A DNA stretch of 33,452 nt. Origin: Methanomicrobium sp. GTDB taxonomy: Archaea > Halobacteriota > Methanomicrobia > Methanomicrobiales > Methanomicrobiaceae. The stretch is taken from contig JAFPWZ010000038.1 in the NCBI GenBank assembly GCA_017412625.1, positions 1 through 33,452 of the forward strand, in the 5' to 3' direction. Below the pieces are notes generated by a model, which had not been told where the DNA came from, did not search any database, and saw only the letters and a list, made by a program, of their open reading frames with translations. The translations under genes and the position numbers were made by a program. Below, piece after piece: positions 19,453 through 32,639 of this stretch (position 1 is its first letter; every line of letters begins with the position of its first letter).

Positions 19453-20250
19453 TTATCCTTCGAGTTCGCTGAGTTTCATGTATTTTGCGCCCATGGCATC
19501 GGCAAGTTTTTTGGCGTAGCCTAAGGAGACAAAGCCTTCTTCCGAGTCGAGGACAAGGGAGGGTATCTTTGCCTCTTTAATCATCGCCGCCATTGAAAAA
19601 CTCTCTGCGAGCGGGTTTTTGTCCGAGAGACTCACGTTTCCTCTGCCGTCCGAGACCAGAATCAGAAGCGGTTTTGTAAGGTGATTCTTCATCATCTCGG
19701 CGGAGATGGTCTCAAGACCTTTCTTCAGACCTTCGGCGAGAGGCGTCTTGCCGCCGATCTCGATCTTTTTCATGTACTCCTGAGCCATCGCGATATCCGA
19801 GGTAAGCGGGAGGATAACCTTCGCGCTCTTTGCGCGGAAGGTAATCAGTCCTATCTTGTCGCGTTTCTGATATGCGTCGATAAGCAGGGAGAGGATAGCG
19901 CCTTTGACCGCCGACATGCGTTTCTGTGCACCCATACTCCCGCTTGCATCCACTATGAAGAGTATGCTGTTCTCGCTTCTGCGTTCCATCACCTTCTCGC
20001 GAACGTCGGAGATGACTATCCGCAATGCCGTGCTGCAGTCCGCGGATGAATCCCCGGAAGTGCCGCCCGCAGGCGATTCCCGCGAGGCTCCGTTCAGTGC
20101 CGCGGCACGAATCGTGGCATCCATTGCAATGGTCTTTGGCTTGCCCTGCGGTATCCTGCTGCCCACATATCTTCCCGAGGAACTTCGGGTTACGCTTCGC
20201 CTGCCGCTTCCCTCCCTTACTATGCTGTCAATCTTCAACTCGGGAGTCAA
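19453..20250 (-). CDS. chlD: VWA-domain chelatase subunit (ChlD part of a frameshifted chlID gene)
   Basis: This frame encodes the C-terminal half of a ChlI-ChlD protein. GSGRRS and SGRYVGSR are followed by a VWA domain with MIDAS motif DASGSMG (D101) and GGKTPLAEGL. The only possible local start is a TTG at 20250, without SD. The frame is open upstream to about 20300, and reading it from 20268 gives RVKSSA before the TTG. This joins seamlessly to the ASDPF end of the ChlI frame. The probable product is a 666-residue fusion made by -1 frameshifting, not a separate 265-residue protein. Residues 54-75 (counted from the TTG) form a Gly/Ser-rich insertion. Confidence 0.85.
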   Translation of the reverse strand: MTPELKIDSIVREGSGRRSVTRSSSGRYVGSRIPQGKPKTIAMDATIRAAALNGASRESPAGGTSGDSSADCSTALRIVISDVREKVMERRSENSILFIVDASGSMGAQKRMSAVKGAILSLLIDAYQKRDKIGLITFRAKSAKVILPLTSDIAMAQEYMKKIEIGGKTPLAEGLKKGLETISAEMMKNHLTKPLLILVSDGRGNVSLSDKNPLAESFSMAAMIKEAKIPSLVLDSEEGFVSLGYAKKLADAMGAKYMKLSELEG

Positions 20251-20274
20251 TGCTGAAGATTTTACGCGAAAGGG
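20230..20274 (-). promoter_or_regulatory. programmed -1 frameshift site (slippery heptamer plus hairpin)
   Basis: On the minus strand the ChlI frame reads GAC-CCT-TTC-GCG-TAA. C-CCT-TTC (20274-20268) is a canonical X-XXY-YYZ heptamer: tRNA-Pro re-pairs from CCU to CCC and tRNA-Phe from UUC to UUU. After 6 nt (GCGTAA, which includes the zero-frame stop) comes a perfect 8-bp stem, AATCTTCA and TGAAGATT, with a 16-nt loop (20261-20230). AAGG lies 7 nt upstream of the heptamer and could add a ribosome contact. The -1 frame is closed by a TAA about 25 nt upstream, so the shift window is narrow and includes this heptamer. Confidence 0.85.
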
Positions 20275-21861: not shown

Positions 21862-24800
21862 ATGAAACTTGTTGCCGTAATGTGGGATGCATATATACCT
21901 CTGCTCAAAAGGGCGGCTGATGAAGCGGGGATTGAATTATATGCGTATGCAAACCGAATTACCGAGGAAAAACGCGAACTTCTCGAAGAGATTCTCGCAA
22001 AGTCGGCGGATGCGGACGTAATTCTCTTCAACCGCACCACGCACAGTTTTTGGGAGGAACTGTGCGTCAGTTTTCAGGAGATTCGGGAGAAAAAACCCGT
22101 AATCTGCGTAGGCAACGATACCTCGTACTGGGGTCTGACATCGACGGACAAGGAGATAGCCATCGAGGCCTACAAATATCTTACAAAGAACAGTTACGAG
22201 AACTTCAGAAGGCTCATATTTTTACTGGATCACCATTTCGGCGATAAAAAATTCGAGGTCCTGCCGCCCCTGGAAGTTCCTTTTCAGGGCATAGTTCACC
22301 CCAAAGCCGGAGATATAATCTTTGACTCTCTCTCCGATTATCTCGAATGGTATGAGGGATATATCGCCGACAGCGGAAAGGATGACGGCGGTATCGGGGA
22401 CCGCGGAGTTAAGGATGGCGGGAAGTATGTCGGCGTCATCATCTCGCGTGCCGCATGGCTCTCGCAGAACCGCGAGATTGAGGAGACCGTTATCAGAGAT
22501 CTCGAAGATTCGGGTCTGAGGACAATCCCCGTCTTCACGAACTCCGTCCATGATGACAGCCAGAAATCTCTCAATATCGCCGAGGTCATTCAAAAGTATT
22601 TCTTCCTCAATAATGTCTCAAAAGTCTCGGCAATAGTCAAGATGACCACCTTCATGATAGGAAAGGACAGCTCGGTCAGCGACAAAGACCGGCTCAACAC
22701 CGGCGTCTCCCTCCTGAAATCGATGAACATCCCCGTATTCCAGCCAATAATCTCATATTACGCAACAATCGAGGACTGGAAAAACTCGCCGGGACTCACC
22801 TCCGATCTGGCGTGGTCGGTCGCAATGCCCGAGTTTGAGGGTCTGATAGAGCCGATAATGCTCGGAGCGTCCAGAGAGAACCGCAACAACGAGTATGACA
22901 GGACGGTAATCCCGGGTCATTCGAAGAAGATTGCCGACAGGGTCATAAACTGGATAAAGCTCAGCGAAAAGAGCAACGCCGAAAAGAAGGTCGTTTTCAT
23001 CCTGAACAACAACCCCTGCGCAAGCGTCGAGGCAAATATCGGCTCGGCGGCGCATCTGGACGCGGCAAGAAGCGTGGTAAACATCCTCGCAAGCATGAAA
23101 AACGCCGGCTACAACGTCGAAGTTCCAGCCTCGGCAAAGGAACTGATGGACCTCTTCCTTGAGAAGAAGGCAATCTCGGAGTTCCGCTGGACTACCAAGT
23201 TGGAGATTGTCAGATGCGGCGGCGCTCTGTATCAGATGAGCACCGAAGAATACATGAAATTCTTCTCATCGCTTAAGGAGCCGGTTCAGAAGAGGGTGAA
23301 AGATATCTGGGGTGAGCCGCCCGGCGAAGGCATGGTGCTGGACGGCAGGATTCTGATAACGGGTCTGAAGTTCGGAAACGCAATCGTCGCCGTTCAACCA
23401 AAACGCGGCTGTTTCGGGGCGCAGTGCGACGGCTCGGTCTGCAAGATTCTCCACAATCCCGACTGCCCGCCGACGCATCAGTATATGGCGGCATATCACT
23501 ATTTCGAGAGCATATACGATACCGACGTCTTCATTCATGTCGGCACTCACGGAAATCTCGAGTTCCTGCCCGGAAAAGGAACCGCACTCTCGGATGAGTG
23601 TTATCCGGCGATTCTCTCGGGAAGAAAGCCGCTTCTCTATATCTACAATACGGACAACCCCCCCGAAGGCACGATTGCCAAGAGGCGTGTCAATGCCACG
23701 CTTATCGGGCATATGCAGACGGCGATGTCGGTATCCTCGCTCTACGGCGAATACGAGAAACTGGACAATCTCCTGAACCAGTACGAGACGGCAAAGACCG
23801 ACCCCGCACGTGCGCATGCCCTGCATCACATGATACTCGATGTTGTCTCCGCTGACAAGTTCAAGAATCTGAATATTACCCATGAGACGCCGATAGATGA
23901 CGCCGTAAGAATCTGTCACGAGGCTTTGACCCTCATCCGCAACACAAAGATAGATTCTGGTATGCACGTCTTCGGAGAACTGCCGCAGGGCGACAGAAAA
24001 GCCGATATGATAACATCGATTCTGATGTATTCCGACGGCAGCGGAGATGCTGATGCCCCGCTCTCGCTCAGAGATACGGTTTCCGCTGTCTTCGGACTCT
24101 CGTATGATGAATTGAAGAGGAATCCGTCGGAATTCAACACGAGATATTCGCTATCCAACGGCGCCCTCATCGAGTATCTCTACAATAAATCGGTTACGGT
24201 CGTAAAGATGACGCTTGCGGGCGCAAACTGCGAGGATATCCTCAATGCTCTCGGAAAGAACGCCTCGGAGTTGAGCGAGAGGACAGTCATGAGCCTGAAG
24301 GAGGCAATGGGAAAGATTGCTGATATTAACCGGCGCATTCTCGATTCAAAAGAGATGGATTCCCTCATGAACGGGCTTAACGGCGGCTATATCCCTCCGG
24401 GACCCTCGGGGCTTGTAATCCGCGGTCGCATCGACGTTCTCCCGAGCGGCAGGAACTTCTACTCGCTCGATCCGACAAAGGTGCCGACGACCTCGGCATG
24501 GCGTGTGGGCGAGAGGCTTGCCGATGCCCTTCTCGACAAATATCTGGACGAGGAAGGCAAATATCCCGAAAATGTCGCGTTCTACTGGATGTGCAGCGAT
24601 ATCATGACCGCCGACGGCGAGATGATGGCTGAGATATTCTCTCTTCTCGGAGTCGTACCCGTCTGGAACAATGCCGGTCAGGTAAAGTCCTTCGAGGTTG
24701 TTCCCGCGGACAAACTGGTGCATCCGAGGATTGACGTGACAATCCGCATCTCGGGCATTCTCCGCGACAATTTCATGGGCGCCGTCAACCTCGTCGACAG

Positions 24801-25734
24801 TGCTATTGCCGCCGTATCCGTCCTCGACGAGCCTGATGAGGTTAACTACGTGAAGAAGCATGTCGCCGAAAAAACGGGTAAAGGGGTTGAATTTACGGAG
24901 GCGACCTCAAGAATCTTCAGCGCACGCCCGGGCGCATATACATCGGGCGTGAATCTGGCAATACTTGCGGGCGCGTGGAAGACCGAAAAGGACCTTGCCG
25001 AGATATTCATCGCAGTCAACGGCTATGCATACGGCGGTAATCGCAACGGAAAAGAGACCTATGAGCAGTTCGCCTCGAATCTTGAGACCGTCAACGTCAC
25101 ATTCAACAAAGTGGTCTCGGATGAGCACGATCTCCTCGGCTGCTGCTGTTACTACGGAAATCAGGGCGGACTTACGGCGGCGGCAAGATACCTCTCGCAG
25201 AAACCCGTGAAGGCGTATTACGGCGATACCCGAGAGCCCGAGTATGTCAGCGTAAGGACTCTTGCCGATGAGGTAAGAAGGGTGGTAAGGACCAAACTCC
25301 TCAATCCGAAGTGGATTGACGGCATGAAAGAGCACGGTTATAAGGGCGCTTCCGATATCATGAAACGTGTCAGCCGCGTTTACGGCTGGGAAGCCGCGAC
25401 GCAGGAGGTCGACGACAGCATATTCGACGATATTGCCGATACCTTCGTGAACGACAAGGTAATGAGGGAGTTCTTTGAGGAGAACAATCCATATGCCCTC
25501 GAAGAGATCTCCAGAAGGCTTCTTGAGGCTGAGAGCAGGGGGCTGTGGAAGCCCAATCAGAAGACCATCGACGAGCTTAAGGAGAACTACCTCGAGATCG
25601 AGTCATGGCTTGAAGACAAGGCGGGGGACGGTAATTTCCAGGGCGGCAGTGTCGACGTGATTACCGCCGATGAGGTCGAAGGCTGGGGCGATTCGATAGC
25701 TGAGGTCATGAAACGGGTGCACAACCGCAGATGA
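21862..25734 (+). CDS. cobN: cobaltochelatase CobN / magnesium chelatase H-family large subunit
   Basis: A 1290-residue CobN/ChlH-family protein, close to the usual length. Conserved blocks are PKRGCFGAQCDG, the catalytic-region motif HVGTHGNLEFLPGKG near residue 560, NPPEGTIAKRRVNA, YAYGGNRNG and CCCYYGNQGG. The large subunit binds the tetrapyrrole and inserts the metal with help from the I and D subunits, encoded divergently. Methanogens that make B12 anaerobically insert cobalt early with a CbiX/CbiK-type chelatase, so the role of CobN here is uncertain; late cobalt insertion, salvage or another tetrapyrrole are options. Residues about 171-190 are a Gly/Asp/Lys-rich insertion (GKDDGGIGDRGVKDGG). 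Confidence 0.93.
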   Translation: MKLVAVMWDAYIPLLKRAADEAGIELYAYANRITEEKRELLEEILAKSADADVILFNRTTHSFWEELCVSFQEIREKKPVICVGNDTSYWGLTSTDKEIAIEAYKYLTKNSYENFRRLIFLLDHHFGDKKFEVLPPLEVPFQGIVHPKAGDIIFDSLSDYLEWYEGYIADSGKDDGGIGDRGVKDGGKYVGVIISRAAWLSQNREIEETVIRDLEDSGLRTIPVFTNSVHDDSQKSLNIAEVIQKYFFLNNVSKVSAIVKMTTFMIGKDSSVSDKDRLNTGVSLLKSMNIPVFQPIISYYATIEDWKNSPGLTSDLAWSVAMPEFEGLIEPIMLGASRENRNNEYDRTVIPGHSKKIADRVINWIKLSEKSNAEKKVVFILNNNPCASVEANIGSAAHLDAARSVVNILASMKNAGYNVEVPASAKELMDLFLEKKAISEFRWTTKLEIVRCGGALYQMSTEEYMKFFSSLKEPVQKRVKDIWGEPPGEGMVLDGRILITGLKFGNAIVAVQPKRGCFGAQCDGSVCKILHNPDCPPTHQYMAAYHYFESIYDTDVFIHVGTHGNLEFLPGKGTALSDECYPAILSGRKPLLYIYNTDNPPEGTIAKRRVNATLIGHMQTAMSVSSLYGEYEKLDNLLNQYETAKTDPARAHALHHMILDVVSADKFKNLNITHETPIDDAVRICHEALTLIRNTKIDSGMHVFGELPQGDRKADMITSILMYSDGSGDADAPLSLRDTVSAVFGLSYDELKRNPSEFNTRYSLSNGALIEYLYNKSVTVVKMTLAGANCEDILNALGKNASELSERTVMSLKEAMGKIADINRRILDSKEMDSLMNGLNGGYIPPGPSGLVIRGRIDVLPSGRNFYSLDPTKVPTTSAWRVGERLADALLDKYLDEEGKYPENVAFYWMCSDIMTADGEMMAEIFSLLGVVPVWNNAGQVKSFEVVPADKLVHPRIDVTIRISGILRDNFMGAVNLVDSAIAAVSVLDEPDEVNYVKKHVAEKTGKGVEFTEATSRIFSARPGAYTSGVNLAILAGAWKTEKDLAEIFIAVNGYAYGGNRNGKETYEQFASNLETVNVTFNKVVSDEHDLLGCCCYYGNQGGLTAAARYLSQKPVKAYYGDTREPEYVSVRTLADEVRRVVRTKLLNPKWIDGMKEHGYKGASDIMKRVSRVYGWEAATQEVDDSIFDDIADTFVNDKVMREFFEENNPYALEEISRRLLEAESRGLWKPNQKTIDELKENYLEIESWLEDKAGDGNFQGGSVDVITADEVEGWGDSIAEVMKRVHNRR

Positions 25735-29636: not shown

Positions 29637-29739
29637 ACAGTATTGTAGTATCGTTTTTTGACTCGGGGCTATCAAAAAAAGTGTGTGGATTTTACCCTGA
29701 GTTGTCGGGATTAGTGTGGAGAGTGGGGATTTTTCAGTA

Positions 29740-30510
29740 ATGATAAAGAATAACCGTAGGACTGAGGCAGTATCTCCCGTGGTTGGAGTAATGCTTATGT
29801 TAGTGGTGACCGTCATAATAGCCGCCGTTGTGAGCGCCTATGCGGGAGGTATGATTATCACCGGTAACCAGAAAGCACCGACGGGTTCTTTTAACTGTAA
29901 AATCACCAACGGCGGCTCATGGGATAACAGTGGATTTGTACTGACTGTTTATTCAGTCAGTGAACCGATTCAGACAAAGGATGTCAAGTTGTCCACATCG
30001 TGGGTAACTTCAGACAAAGAAAGCGATAAAGCCGAAACGAGAATCGGTGACACTGTAGTAACAATCGGTCTTCAGCATGACCCCCGCGGGAGCGGTAATT
30101 TCCCGAAAGACTGGAACTGTGAAATTGATCATTACGGCGTTGTGAAAAACATGCATGCTCCGTTGGGATACGGACCCGGAGTGCAGAATACCGCTGCTGA
30201 CTTTACCAAAGCGACAATTCTGGAACAGTGTTTCGGGAACTACATGCTGACTTCGGGAACTACACTTTACGCCAGACCTTGCGGCTACAACAGTAGCGGC
30301 GGTTACGGAGTATCTTCCGATAAGCGTTATATATACACTGCAGGTTCAAAGTATACCGAGGAGTTCATGAGCGGGAAAAAGAAGGATGAGATGTCCGGTA
30401 TTCTCGGTACCAAATGGTATAATTTGAGACCCGGCGATATTGTAAACGTAAAACTGACGCATACGCCGACCGGTTCCGTACTGTTCGAAAAAGATGTAGT
30501 TGTGGAATAA
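29740..30510 (+). CDS. archaeal pilin-like secreted protein, type A (copy 1)
   Basis: From ATG 29740 the protein has 256 residues; a GTG at 29716 would add 8 residues before the charged N-tip. A short basic tip (KNNRR) and EAVSPVVGVMLMLVV at 9-23, running into a hydrophobic helix to about residue 34, match the archaeal type IV pilin N-terminal family (PF07790, formerly DUF1628). The rest is beta-rich: GSFNCK, SVSEPIQTKDVKLSTSW, PLGYGPG, and the C-terminal LRPGDIVNVKLTHTPTGS. Cys in FNCK and in the NCEIDHY segment recur in the other A proteins. Probably a surface filament subunit or secreted pseudopilin. Confidence 0.85.
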   Translation: MIKNNRRTEAVSPVVGVMLMLVVTVIIAAVVSAYAGGMIITGNQKAPTGSFNCKITNGGSWDNSGFVLTVYSVSEPIQTKDVKLSTSWVTSDKESDKAETRIGDTVVTIGLQHDPRGSGNFPKDWNCEIDHYGVVKNMHAPLGYGPGVQNTAADFTKATILEQCFGNYMLTSGTTLYARPCGYNSSGGYGVSSDKRYIYTAGSKYTEEFMSGKKKDEMSGILGTKWYNLRPGDIVNVKLTHTPTGSVLFEKDVVVE

Positions 30511-30605
30511 TCAGAAATATAAAAAATAAAACAGCCAAAATAAAACAAATCGTCAAAAAAGCATCTGAAAAAGTCAAAAATCAGTAAAATTCCTTAAAAA
30601 GAAAA

Positions 30606-30610
30606 AAAGG
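30606..30610 (+). promoter_or_regulatory. ribosome binding site of pilin B1
   Basis: AAGGT, 7 nt before ATG 30618. The gap from A1 (107 nt) is A-rich with repeated GTCAAAAA-like words and no terminator hairpin, so A1 and B1 may share a transcript. Confidence 0.5.
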
Positions 30611-30617
30611 TAAATGC

Positions 30618-31172
30618 ATGAAAGGTTGCAGAATAAAACTTGGAAATGAAGCGGTTTCGCCGGTTGTCGGCGTTATGCTCATGCTTGTGGTTACTATTAT
30701 GACCGCTGCAATGGTCAGCGGTTTTGCAGGCGGGCTTCCCGATACTTCACATAAATCATCCAGCATTGCACTGAAAGCAACTTACAGCCAGGCTAACGGT
30801 CTTACCCTTGTCAATATGGGCGGAGAACCCTTAGGCACTTCCGACATGGTTGTTATCACCAGACTCACCGATACTTTCGGTGATTCCGGGCATCTGACCT
30901 GGACAATTAATCCCTTTGACATTGTCAGCAAGCGCGGTCAGGATGCCGGAAGTGAATACGCATGGTACACGGAAGACGGTTCTTACGGACAACGCAGTTT
31001 TGCCGCAGGGGATGCGGCATATGTTGCACCGGAATACATGCAGAACGGTATGTCAGATTCCGATGAGTATTCGGTCAACAATGTCAACAATCTCGGCAAG
31101 GAATTCTGGGTTGAGCTGAGCGACAGTTCAGGAATGATCTTCGCAAAGACCAAAGCCGTAATTGCGAAGTAA
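30618..31172 (+). CDS. archaeal pilin-like secreted protein, type B (copy 1)
   Basis: A 184-residue protein with the same leader and helix as type A (EAVSPVVGVMLMLVVT from residue 11) but a different body. The body has ATYSQANGLTLVNMGGEPL, TDTFGDSGHLTWTI, an AAGDAAYV segment, and the end NNLGKEFWVELSDSSGM with FAKTKAVIAK. This matches the B protein at 32049 throughout. It is shorter than type A and lacks its Cys pair. Likely a second filament or pseudopilin subunit working with the A protein encoded just before. Confidence 0.85.
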   Translation: MKGCRIKLGNEAVSPVVGVMLMLVVTIMTAAMVSGFAGGLPDTSHKSSSIALKATYSQANGLTLVNMGGEPLGTSDMVVITRLTDTFGDSGHLTWTINPFDIVSKRGQDAGSEYAWYTEDGSYGQRSFAAGDAAYVAPEYMQNGMSDSDEYSVNNVNNLGKEFWVELSDSSGMIFAKTKAVIAK

Positions 31173-31209
31173 CCGGGCTTTAAGTCACGAATGCGGTTAC
31201 AGATGCGGT

Positions 31210-31225
31210 TGCCGTAAAAACGGCA
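31210..31225 (+). terminator. hairpin between pilin B1 and A2
   Basis: TGCCGT-AAAA-ACGGCA, a perfect 6-bp stem with a 4-nt loop, 38 nt after the B1 stop and followed by a T-rich stretch (ATTTGTTTTATT). It suggests the A1-B1 unit ends here and A2-B2 forms a new one. Confidence 0.5.
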
Positions 31226-31328
31226 GCCCGATTTGTTTTATTAAGTAAAAAACGATAATTTGAATTGTTTTGGATATCCGGGTAAATTAAAAGCGGTTGT
31301 TTAATTCTGCCCGTCATGTGGTGTTGTA

Positions 31329-32021
31329 ATGAATATATTCGGAATGAAAGACAGTATACAAAAAAGCAGTGAAGCAGTATCTCCTGTGGTCGGAGTAATG
31401 CTTATGCTGGTGGTGACCGTTATCATAGCCGGCATTGCCAGCGGTTTTGCGAGCGGATTTGTGTTGGGTTCTTCATATCCGCCGACAGGCACATTTAACT
31501 GTAAGGTTATCAACGGCGGCTCTTGGGAGAACAGTTTTTTTGAAATAGACGTTGTAACAGTCAGTGAGCCTGTTCCGACAAAGGACGTGAAGCTTACAGT
31601 TTCATGGATTGCTTCAGACGGAACCTCTGACAGTGTGACAACCCTCGGACCCGCGGATACGGCGAACGGGGAAGAACCGAACTGTCAGTACGGCAGTTAT
31701 AAGTACAATGTGCCGCTGGGCTACGGTCCCGATATTGATTATACCCCTTCGGAGGTATATACAACGCAGCAGGAATACGGAAACTATGCGCTTGTTGCCG
31801 GAAGAATACTTTACGCCTCGCCTAACGGTAAATCGGGTGAAGGTTACGGCATAAGCCCGGGTACGCGCTATGAATACTCGGACGCTACATCGGATCCGAT
31901 GCGTGCTGTCTTGGGTCCGGACTGGAATCATCTGAGATCCGGCGACAGGGTAAATGTGAGACTTACGCATATACCTACATCAACCATACTGTATGAGAAT
32001 GATGTCATAGTGGAGGGATAA
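31329..32021 (+). CDS. archaeal pilin-like secreted protein, type A (copy 2)
   Basis: A 230-residue paralogue of A1 (start 31329; Met6 at 31344 is possible). EAVSPVVGVMLMLVVT begins at residue 15. The body repeats the A pattern: GTFNCKVINGGSWENS, SEPVPTKDVKLTVSW, NCQYGSYKYNVPLGYGP, NYALVAGRILYASP and LRSGDRVNVRLTHIPTS. The Cys of FNCK and NCQY are conserved. It lacks the 17-nt upstream motif found before A1 and A3. B2 begins 27 nt after its stop, so the two form one operon. Confidence 0.85.
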   Translation: MNIFGMKDSIQKSSEAVSPVVGVMLMLVVTVIIAGIASGFASGFVLGSSYPPTGTFNCKVINGGSWENSFFEIDVVTVSEPVPTKDVKLTVSWIASDGTSDSVTTLGPADTANGEEPNCQYGSYKYNVPLGYGPDIDYTPSEVYTTQQEYGNYALVAGRILYASPNGKSGEGYGISPGTRYEYSDATSDPMRAVLGPDWNHLRSGDRVNVRLTHIPTSTILYENDVIVEG

Positions 32022-32036
32022 GGTCATGAAAACGGC

Positions 32037-32042
32037 AGAGGA
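32037..32042 (+). promoter_or_regulatory. ribosome binding site of pilin B2
   Basis: A GAGGAG-type sequence about 5 nt before ATG 32049, the clearest SD of the pilin genes. It supports translational coupling of B2 to A2. Confidence 0.55.
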
Positions 32043-32048
32043 GATAAA

Positions 32049-32639
32049 ATGAGCGTAATAAGAGGTAACGGATGTGAGGCGGTATCGCCGGTTGTCGGCG
32101 TCATGCTCATGCTCGTGGTTGTGCTCATCCTCGCCGCCGTTGTGACCAGCTTTGCCGGCGGAATGATGGATACAAGCCGCAAATTGGATAATGTGGGGAT
32201 AGATGCCACTTACAGCCAGACCGACGGTTTTACAGTCACCAATATGGGGGGAGTGCCTCTGGAAACCAAGGATATTGATATTATTATCCGACTCCCGGGT
32301 ACTTTCGGTGATTACGAGCACATGACATGGACTGTCGATCACGGAAAAATTACTTCCAAGCGTTTTTACGGAACCGCTAATTCGTATATGTCCGGAAACA
32401 CTAAAATTAATTTTAATGATTATGTCTGGCTCAAAAATAACGGTCAGGAGGGGGTATACGTCTTTGCGCCCGGAGATACCGCATATGTCAGGCGTCAGGA
32501 TATGCCCGCCGGGCTGAAAGATTATTACAATGCTTATTCCATTCAGAACCGAAACAATATCGGAAAGGAATTCATTGTGGAACTTGTCGATAAGAAGGGC
32601 AACATGCTCGCAACGACAAAGGCTATGATAGTCAAGTAA
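32049..32639 (+). CDS. archaeal pilin-like secreted protein, type B (copy 2)
   Basis: A 196-residue paralogue of B1. EAVSPVVGVMLMLVV starts at residue 10, then DATYSQTDGFTVTNMGGVPL, LPGTFGDYEHMTWTV, FAPGDTAYVRRQDM and NNIGKEFIVELVDKKGN ending TTKAMIVK. A central segment (about residues 106-136) is longer than in B1. An unpaired Cys sits just before the EAVSP motif, in the part expected to be cleaved off. Co-transcribed with A2. Confidence 0.85.
   Translation: MSVIRGNGCEAVSPVVGVMLMLVVVLILAAVVTSFAGGMMDTSRKLDNVGIDATYSQTDGFTVTNMGGVPLETKDIDIIIRLPGTFGDYEHMTWTVDHGKITSKRFYGTANSYMSGNTKINFNDYVWLKNNGQEGVYVFAPGDTAYVRRQDMPAGLKDYYNAYSIQNRNNIGKEFIVELVDKKGNMLATTKAMIVK

Follow-up and report, generated by a model that had tools for sequence, protein, structure and literature searches.

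A chlD-type chelatase gene of Methanomicrobium probably decoded by -1 ribosomal frameshifting at a CCCTTTC site

A locus on the minus strand of a Methanomicrobium contig encodes the AAA+ ATPase and the VWA parts of a chelatase subunit in two overlapping reading frames, which raises the question whether these are two genes, one broken gene, or a single gene read by -1 programmed ribosomal frameshifting. The contig, referred to below as the window (the whole stretch of DNA analyzed, 33,452 nucleotides), comes from a draft genome of this rumen methanogen that is 89% complete. Chelatase genes with -1 programmed frameshifting, known as fs-chlD, have been described (Antonov 2013, PMC3711429; Kuznetsov 2022, PMC9227772; likewise Antonov 2020 in MBE, as cited in PMC9227772). 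An earlier note on this DNA had pointed to this literature, but the sites described there are poly-A, so the present locus represents a variant and not another case of that signal. The analysis below makes it very probable, as far as sequence comparison can tell, that a single chlID-type gene is present here and that -1 programmed ribosomal frameshifting joins its two frames.

Gene layout and the candidate slip signal

The zero-frame ORF (21452 to 20262, minus strand) starts at ATG 21452, immediately preceded by GAGGAAAC, and ends with the TAA at 20264-20262, encoding a 396-aa short product that consists of a ChlI-like AAA+ ATPase and an acidic linker. It matches the NCBIfam Cob-chelat-sub profile with 538 bits and BchI-ChlI with 422 bits, its PDB match is ChlI (6l8d, 2e-97), and the product makes up a full AAA+ module in which the Walker motifs are intact. 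The -1 frame part of the long product (20274 to 19453, minus strand) leads into a VWA (integrin I) domain, scores 248 bits against the C-terminal half of Cob-chelat-sub, and has a PDB match to BchD (2x31). In NCBIfam TIGR02442, 'putative cobaltochelatase', the zero-frame ORF corresponds to model positions 1-384 and the -1 frame ORF to positions 404-640. The two parts are offset by one base, as the earlier note had stated: the -1 frame is open just 28 nt ahead of the zero-frame stop, and a step back of one base leads into the VWA frame. Counted from ATG 21452, the unshifted and shifted products have 396 and 666 aa, respectively, exactly the sizes that had been given.

All elements claimed for a -1 site were found on the minus strand at this overlap. 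The slippery heptamer C_CCT_TTC (20274-20268) is the sole in-phase XXXYYYZ sequence of the upstream ORF; its RNA form CCCUUUC fits the X_XXY_YYZ pattern with Z other than G. It is followed by the 6-nt spacer GCGTAA (20267-20262), whose end is the zero-frame TAA, one codon past the heptamer, and then by a hairpin (20261-20230) with an 8-bp stem, AATCTTCA (20261-20254) and TGAAGATT (20237-20230), and a 16-nt loop. The stem consists of eight Watson-Crick pairs, extends to 10 bp counting a G-U, and lies within the 5-9 nt downstream of the heptamer at which the structure of a -1 signal is sought. A pentamer of the loop, CUCCC (20246-20242), is complementary to a downstream GGGAG (20216-20212), and the two could form stem 2 of a pseudoknot; in the predicted free fold, the slip site also pairs with GGGAGGG. 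We consider it possible, if somewhat short of probable, that this predicted pseudoknot takes part in stimulation. The overlap contains no run of six or more A, and hence no slippery site of the published A-rich kind, and an Rfam scan of the window gave nothing at gathering thresholds.

Chance occurrence of this combination was assessed in several ways. An in-phase heptamer was found in 2.5% of random 9-codon overlap trials, and a stem with 8 or more pairs at matching spacing in 4 of 4000 dinucleotide shuffles (0.1%) and 37 of 4000 synonymous recodings (0.9%). The ORFs of the window comprise 9,587 codons with 14 in-phase heptamers, among which C_CCT_TTC is the only one followed by a stem of more than 5 bp, the best stems of the other 13 having 2-5 bp.

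On the proposed mechanism, ribosomes would start at ATG 21452, and those remaining in frame would terminate at TAA 20264-20262 to release the 396-aa ChlI-like ATPase. The hairpin, or perhaps a pseudoknot, would make a fraction of them pause while CCU is occupied by tRNA-Pro and UUC by tRNA-Phe, and a tandem slip to CCC and UUU would bring these ribosomes into the -1 frame, yielding the 666-aa ChlD-like AAA+/VWA subunit. Both proteins, together with the divergently encoded CobN, would form a three-subunit tetrapyrrole chelatase. We infer the slippage, its efficiency and major outcome, as well as the complex and the metal or ring on which it would act; the ChlI-like and the ChlD-like subunits are presumably both made.

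Genes for tRNA-Pro(GGG) and tRNA-Phe(GAA) are present among the best 30 tRNA matches in the genome. Perfect re-pairing had been claimed for both tRNAs, which is correct for Pro(GGG), moving from a wobble on CCU to a perfect match on CCC, but not for Phe(GAA), which would exchange its perfect match on UUC for a wobble on UUU. The genome also encodes TYW1, which makes a wyosine-type base beside the anticodon of tRNA-Phe probable; since wyosine-type modification of tRNA-Phe was reported to restrain frameshifting in yeast (PMC5009743), the presence of TYW1 counts against slippage at this tRNA. Transcriptional slippage, a confounder at poly-A sites, is an unlikely explanation here because the slip site has no homopolymer longer than three.

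The cobN-like gene encoding the large chelatase subunit (21862-25734, plus strand) is divergent from the frameshift gene, scores 1606.6 bits against NCBIfam CobN NF004646, above the cut-off, and is the sole PF02514 match in the genome. A second ChlI-type gene was not found in this draft genome, from which, at 89% completeness, a separate chlI could be missing. As in fs-chlD genomes, cobN is accompanied by no separate small-subunit gene in the draft, and one gene with two frames offset by -1 would specify a short product of the ChlI type and a long one of the ChlD type. The flanking genes encode BtuC/BtuD-type transporter subunits and a Peripla_BP_2 protein. Cobaltochelatase CobNST of aerobic B12 synthesis is defined by inserting cobalt into hydrogenobyrinic acid a,c-diamide. 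The functions of archaeal CobN homologues have been stated to be unclear (PMC12583661), so 'B12' is used here as a label, not a result. Elsewhere in the window, four consecutive ORFs with an archaeal type IV pilin N-terminal domain (29716-32639) and an O-phosphoseryl-tRNA synthetase-like gene with a class II core and SepRS C-terminal domain (59-1723) were observed.

Conservation of the frame break and alternative explanations

A protein search of the genome collection identified the same gene in the isolate Methanomicrobium mobile BP (94% identity), and whole-genome searches revealed it in a third Methanomicrobium genome (85% identity). The frame break, heptamer, spacer and hairpin are common to all three, the heptamer being invariant and the entire element identical in the cultured M. 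mobile BP, a point that the earlier note had proposed to check by aligning related genomes. Among 232 genomes of the order, the element is present in these three and absent from the other 229.

Comparison of the three species revealed an 80-nt block (20274-20195, minus strand) without synonymous change. The one difference in it affects the outermost stem base, where the third genome has G-U in place of A-U, the only varying pair across the three genomes. In comparisons with the third genome, dS amounts to 0.58-0.62 for the AAA part and 0.80-0.95 for the VWA part, and drops to 0 over the 27 codons around the site. Runs without synonymous change of this length span the site in only 12 and 10 of 20,000 permutations, so the conservation of the signal exceeds coding needs and lies far beyond chance. 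At the same time, dN/dS is low on both sides of the break (0.07-0.09 on the AAA side and 0.11-0.12 on the VWA side), indicating that each frame is coding and evolves under purifying selection. Downstream of the hairpin, the block continues for another 35 nt (20229-20195). Both CUCCC and GGGAG lie inside it and are invariant across the three genomes, and the candidate pseudoknot would explain part of the constraint beyond the hairpin. A further hexamer at the end of the block, GCGAAG, is complementary to UUCGC at the slip site.

These observations bear directly on whether the break is real. Frame breaks in draft assemblies are often errors, and the earlier note had asked for confirmation of the base count at the heptamer; however, the same break occurs in three separate assemblies, one of them an isolate genome, which excludes an extra T or a read error. 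A decaying pseudogene would show neither low dN/dS on both sides of the break nor an 80-nt block free of synonymous change. Sequence error and pseudogene can therefore be ruled out with near certainty. It is also very unlikely that the locus comprises two genes, with termination at the TAA (20264-20262) followed by reinitiation of the VWA protein at TTG 20250 or further downstream. In the -1 frame, this TTG follows the stop by 11 nt; all three genomes have it, and ORF callers would report 19453-20250 as a gene. Nevertheless, it is not preceded by a Shine-Dalgarno-like sequence (GGAGG or GGTGA), it sits in the hairpin loop, and the -1 frame ahead of it (PFRVK) is homologous to the in-frame protein of relatives. 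Moreover, the synonymous constraint begins at the heptamer and extends about 55 nt beyond the TTG, and reinitiation leaves the canonical heptamer unexplained.

A different alternative accepts the frameshifting but regards the 396-aa product as a mere by-product, the 666-aa protein being the sole functional subunit like the product of an in-frame fused gene. The nearest relatives (G052, G097, G127 and G036) each have a single in-frame fused gene with no further match at E 1e-60, and G052 seems to manage with this gene (L021) and no second ChlI-type gene, so that two products may not be needed. On the other hand, the signal is under strong constraint that extends to the stop codon directly following it, which speaks for retention of both outcomes. 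The short product also comprises an entire AAA+ module, its Walker motifs intact as in ChlI, and a two-subunit explanation has been given for the published members of the family (PMC9227772). We consider the by-product explanation unlikely and favor programmed frameshifting with two functional products.

Origin of the frameshifted gene

The products of in-frame fused genes from the order (54-60% identity) can be aligned to the joined 666-aa protein without interruption, and the alignment passes through the junction, as expected if the joined reading is continuous with the fused family. At the junction, ASDPFRVKSS is opposed to EGSPFRLNQQ of the relatives, so that the slip site falls on their S-P-F-R motif. 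This suggests that the -1 reading PFRV is ancestral and that a net frame change just upstream produced the break. The earlier note had named plain in-frame genes in relatives, with no conserved heptamer or stem, as speaking against frameshifting; in-frame genes do occur, but seemingly as the sister genes from which the frameshifted form derives. In the phylogenetic tree of the AAA domain, the three Methanomicrobium genes form a clade (100/99) that is sister to the in-frame gene L021 (100/99) and is placed among in-frame genes, whereas the poly-A frameshift genes of the order, L005 and L037, are separated from it by a 100/100 branch. The single poly-A row from Methylomirabilis (L019) sits on a long branch, and no weight was placed on it in reading the tree.

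Published frameshifted chlD genes were reported to group together rather than with in-frame ones, and one ancient frameshifted gene, later passed on by transfer, was proposed as their source (PMC9227772). The Methanomicrobium gene does not group with other frameshifted chlD genes, its sister being in-frame, and the tree gives no support to inheritance from poly-A frameshift genes. Slip sites of chlD are mostly A+T-rich and said to vary by taxon (PMC9227772); the published A_AAA_AAA or A_AAA_AAR runs, three poly-A cassettes of which gave 10-63% frameshifting in E. coli (PMC3711429), differ from C_CCT_TTC. Frameshifted chlD genes were also listed for Methanocaldococcus and Methanococcus (PMC3711429). 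In the poly-A relatives examined, the site lies where the linker begins (near residue 365 of P0001), whereas C_CCT_TTC occurs some 50 residues later, at the junction of the linker and the VWA domain. Since heptamer, position and place in the tree all differ from those of the poly-A genes, the Methanomicrobium gene appears to be an independently evolved variant, and we consider it likely that its frameshifting arose independently. A more detailed scenario can be offered only tentatively: frameshifting arose anew in an in-frame fused chlD at the PFR triplet (CCC TTT C), was fixed by a pseudoknot-type stimulator, is convergent with the poly-A genes, and could be tuned via tRNA-Phe wyosine.

New here is the combination of a canonical non-homopolymer heptamer, a different position in the gene, and in-frame nearest kin, with a prior listing in Antonov 2020 being possible. 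A full-text literature search for CCCUUUC together with 'frameshifting' returned one fungal virus paper only and none on a cellular gene, although Antonov 2020 may list a CCCTTTC case. The proposed arrangement resembles that of dnaX, in which a -1 frameshift produces from one gene two AAA+ ATPase subunits, tau and gamma, with and without the C-terminal domain, for one complex. There the shift yields the shorter product, whereas in Methanomicrobium it would yield the longer one. Experimental evidence for -1 frameshifting in archaeal cellular genes is scarce, Sulfolobus fucA1 being the demonstrated case and the chelatase a presumed one (PMC8211752), and the identical element in a cultured host, M. 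mobile BP, is of interest in this respect. Like the Methanomicrobium gene, fucA1 is an archaeal cellular gene with a stem-loop and -1 slippage (predicted in our case), but it has an A-AAA-AAT site and a short product without known use (PMC8211752). Our results suggest more than one origin for the production of two chelatase subunits by a single gene, as opposed to the one ancient origin proposed previously (PMC9227772).

Three further genomes of the same genus (G018, G020 and G022) encode CobN, and their chlD either is in-frame and belongs to another clade (L007, L009) or forms part of a chlI-chlD tandem (L010, L014). Given these genomes, the frameshift locus appears to be a copy that was replaced or was retained differently.

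Other chlD genes of the phylum

A survey of 40 mostly short-ORF ChlI homologues of the phylum showed that most represent separate chlI and chlD genes and not frameshift genes. Frame-broken chlD of the published poly-A type, with 8-10 A where the linker begins, was observed in other genomes of the order, as L005, L017, L037 and L103 (G024, G017, G056 and G142, respectively), and in one bacterium, as L019 (Methylomirabilis). In L103, which has an 8-A run, the C-terminal frame differs (+1 relative), possibly reflecting run-length variation.

An in-frame fused chlD, the single match in its genome, was found in seven members of family f8, genus g87, probably Methanosarcina (L044, L047, L049, L050, L053, L055 and L057). 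In all seven, the linker contains an in-phase slip site made of an A run, which a -1 stop follows at a distance of two codons, and a dnaX-like reverse arrangement is possible, in which slippage would give a short ChlI-like product. The linker in this genus is lysine-rich, so the A-run slip site may be due to chance, and the arrangement is absent in L046, L051 and L056 of the same genus. Finally, the in-frame fused chlD gene L004 (G016) has 12 consecutive A in the linker with a +1 stop two codons later, and is a candidate for slippage in transcription or translation.
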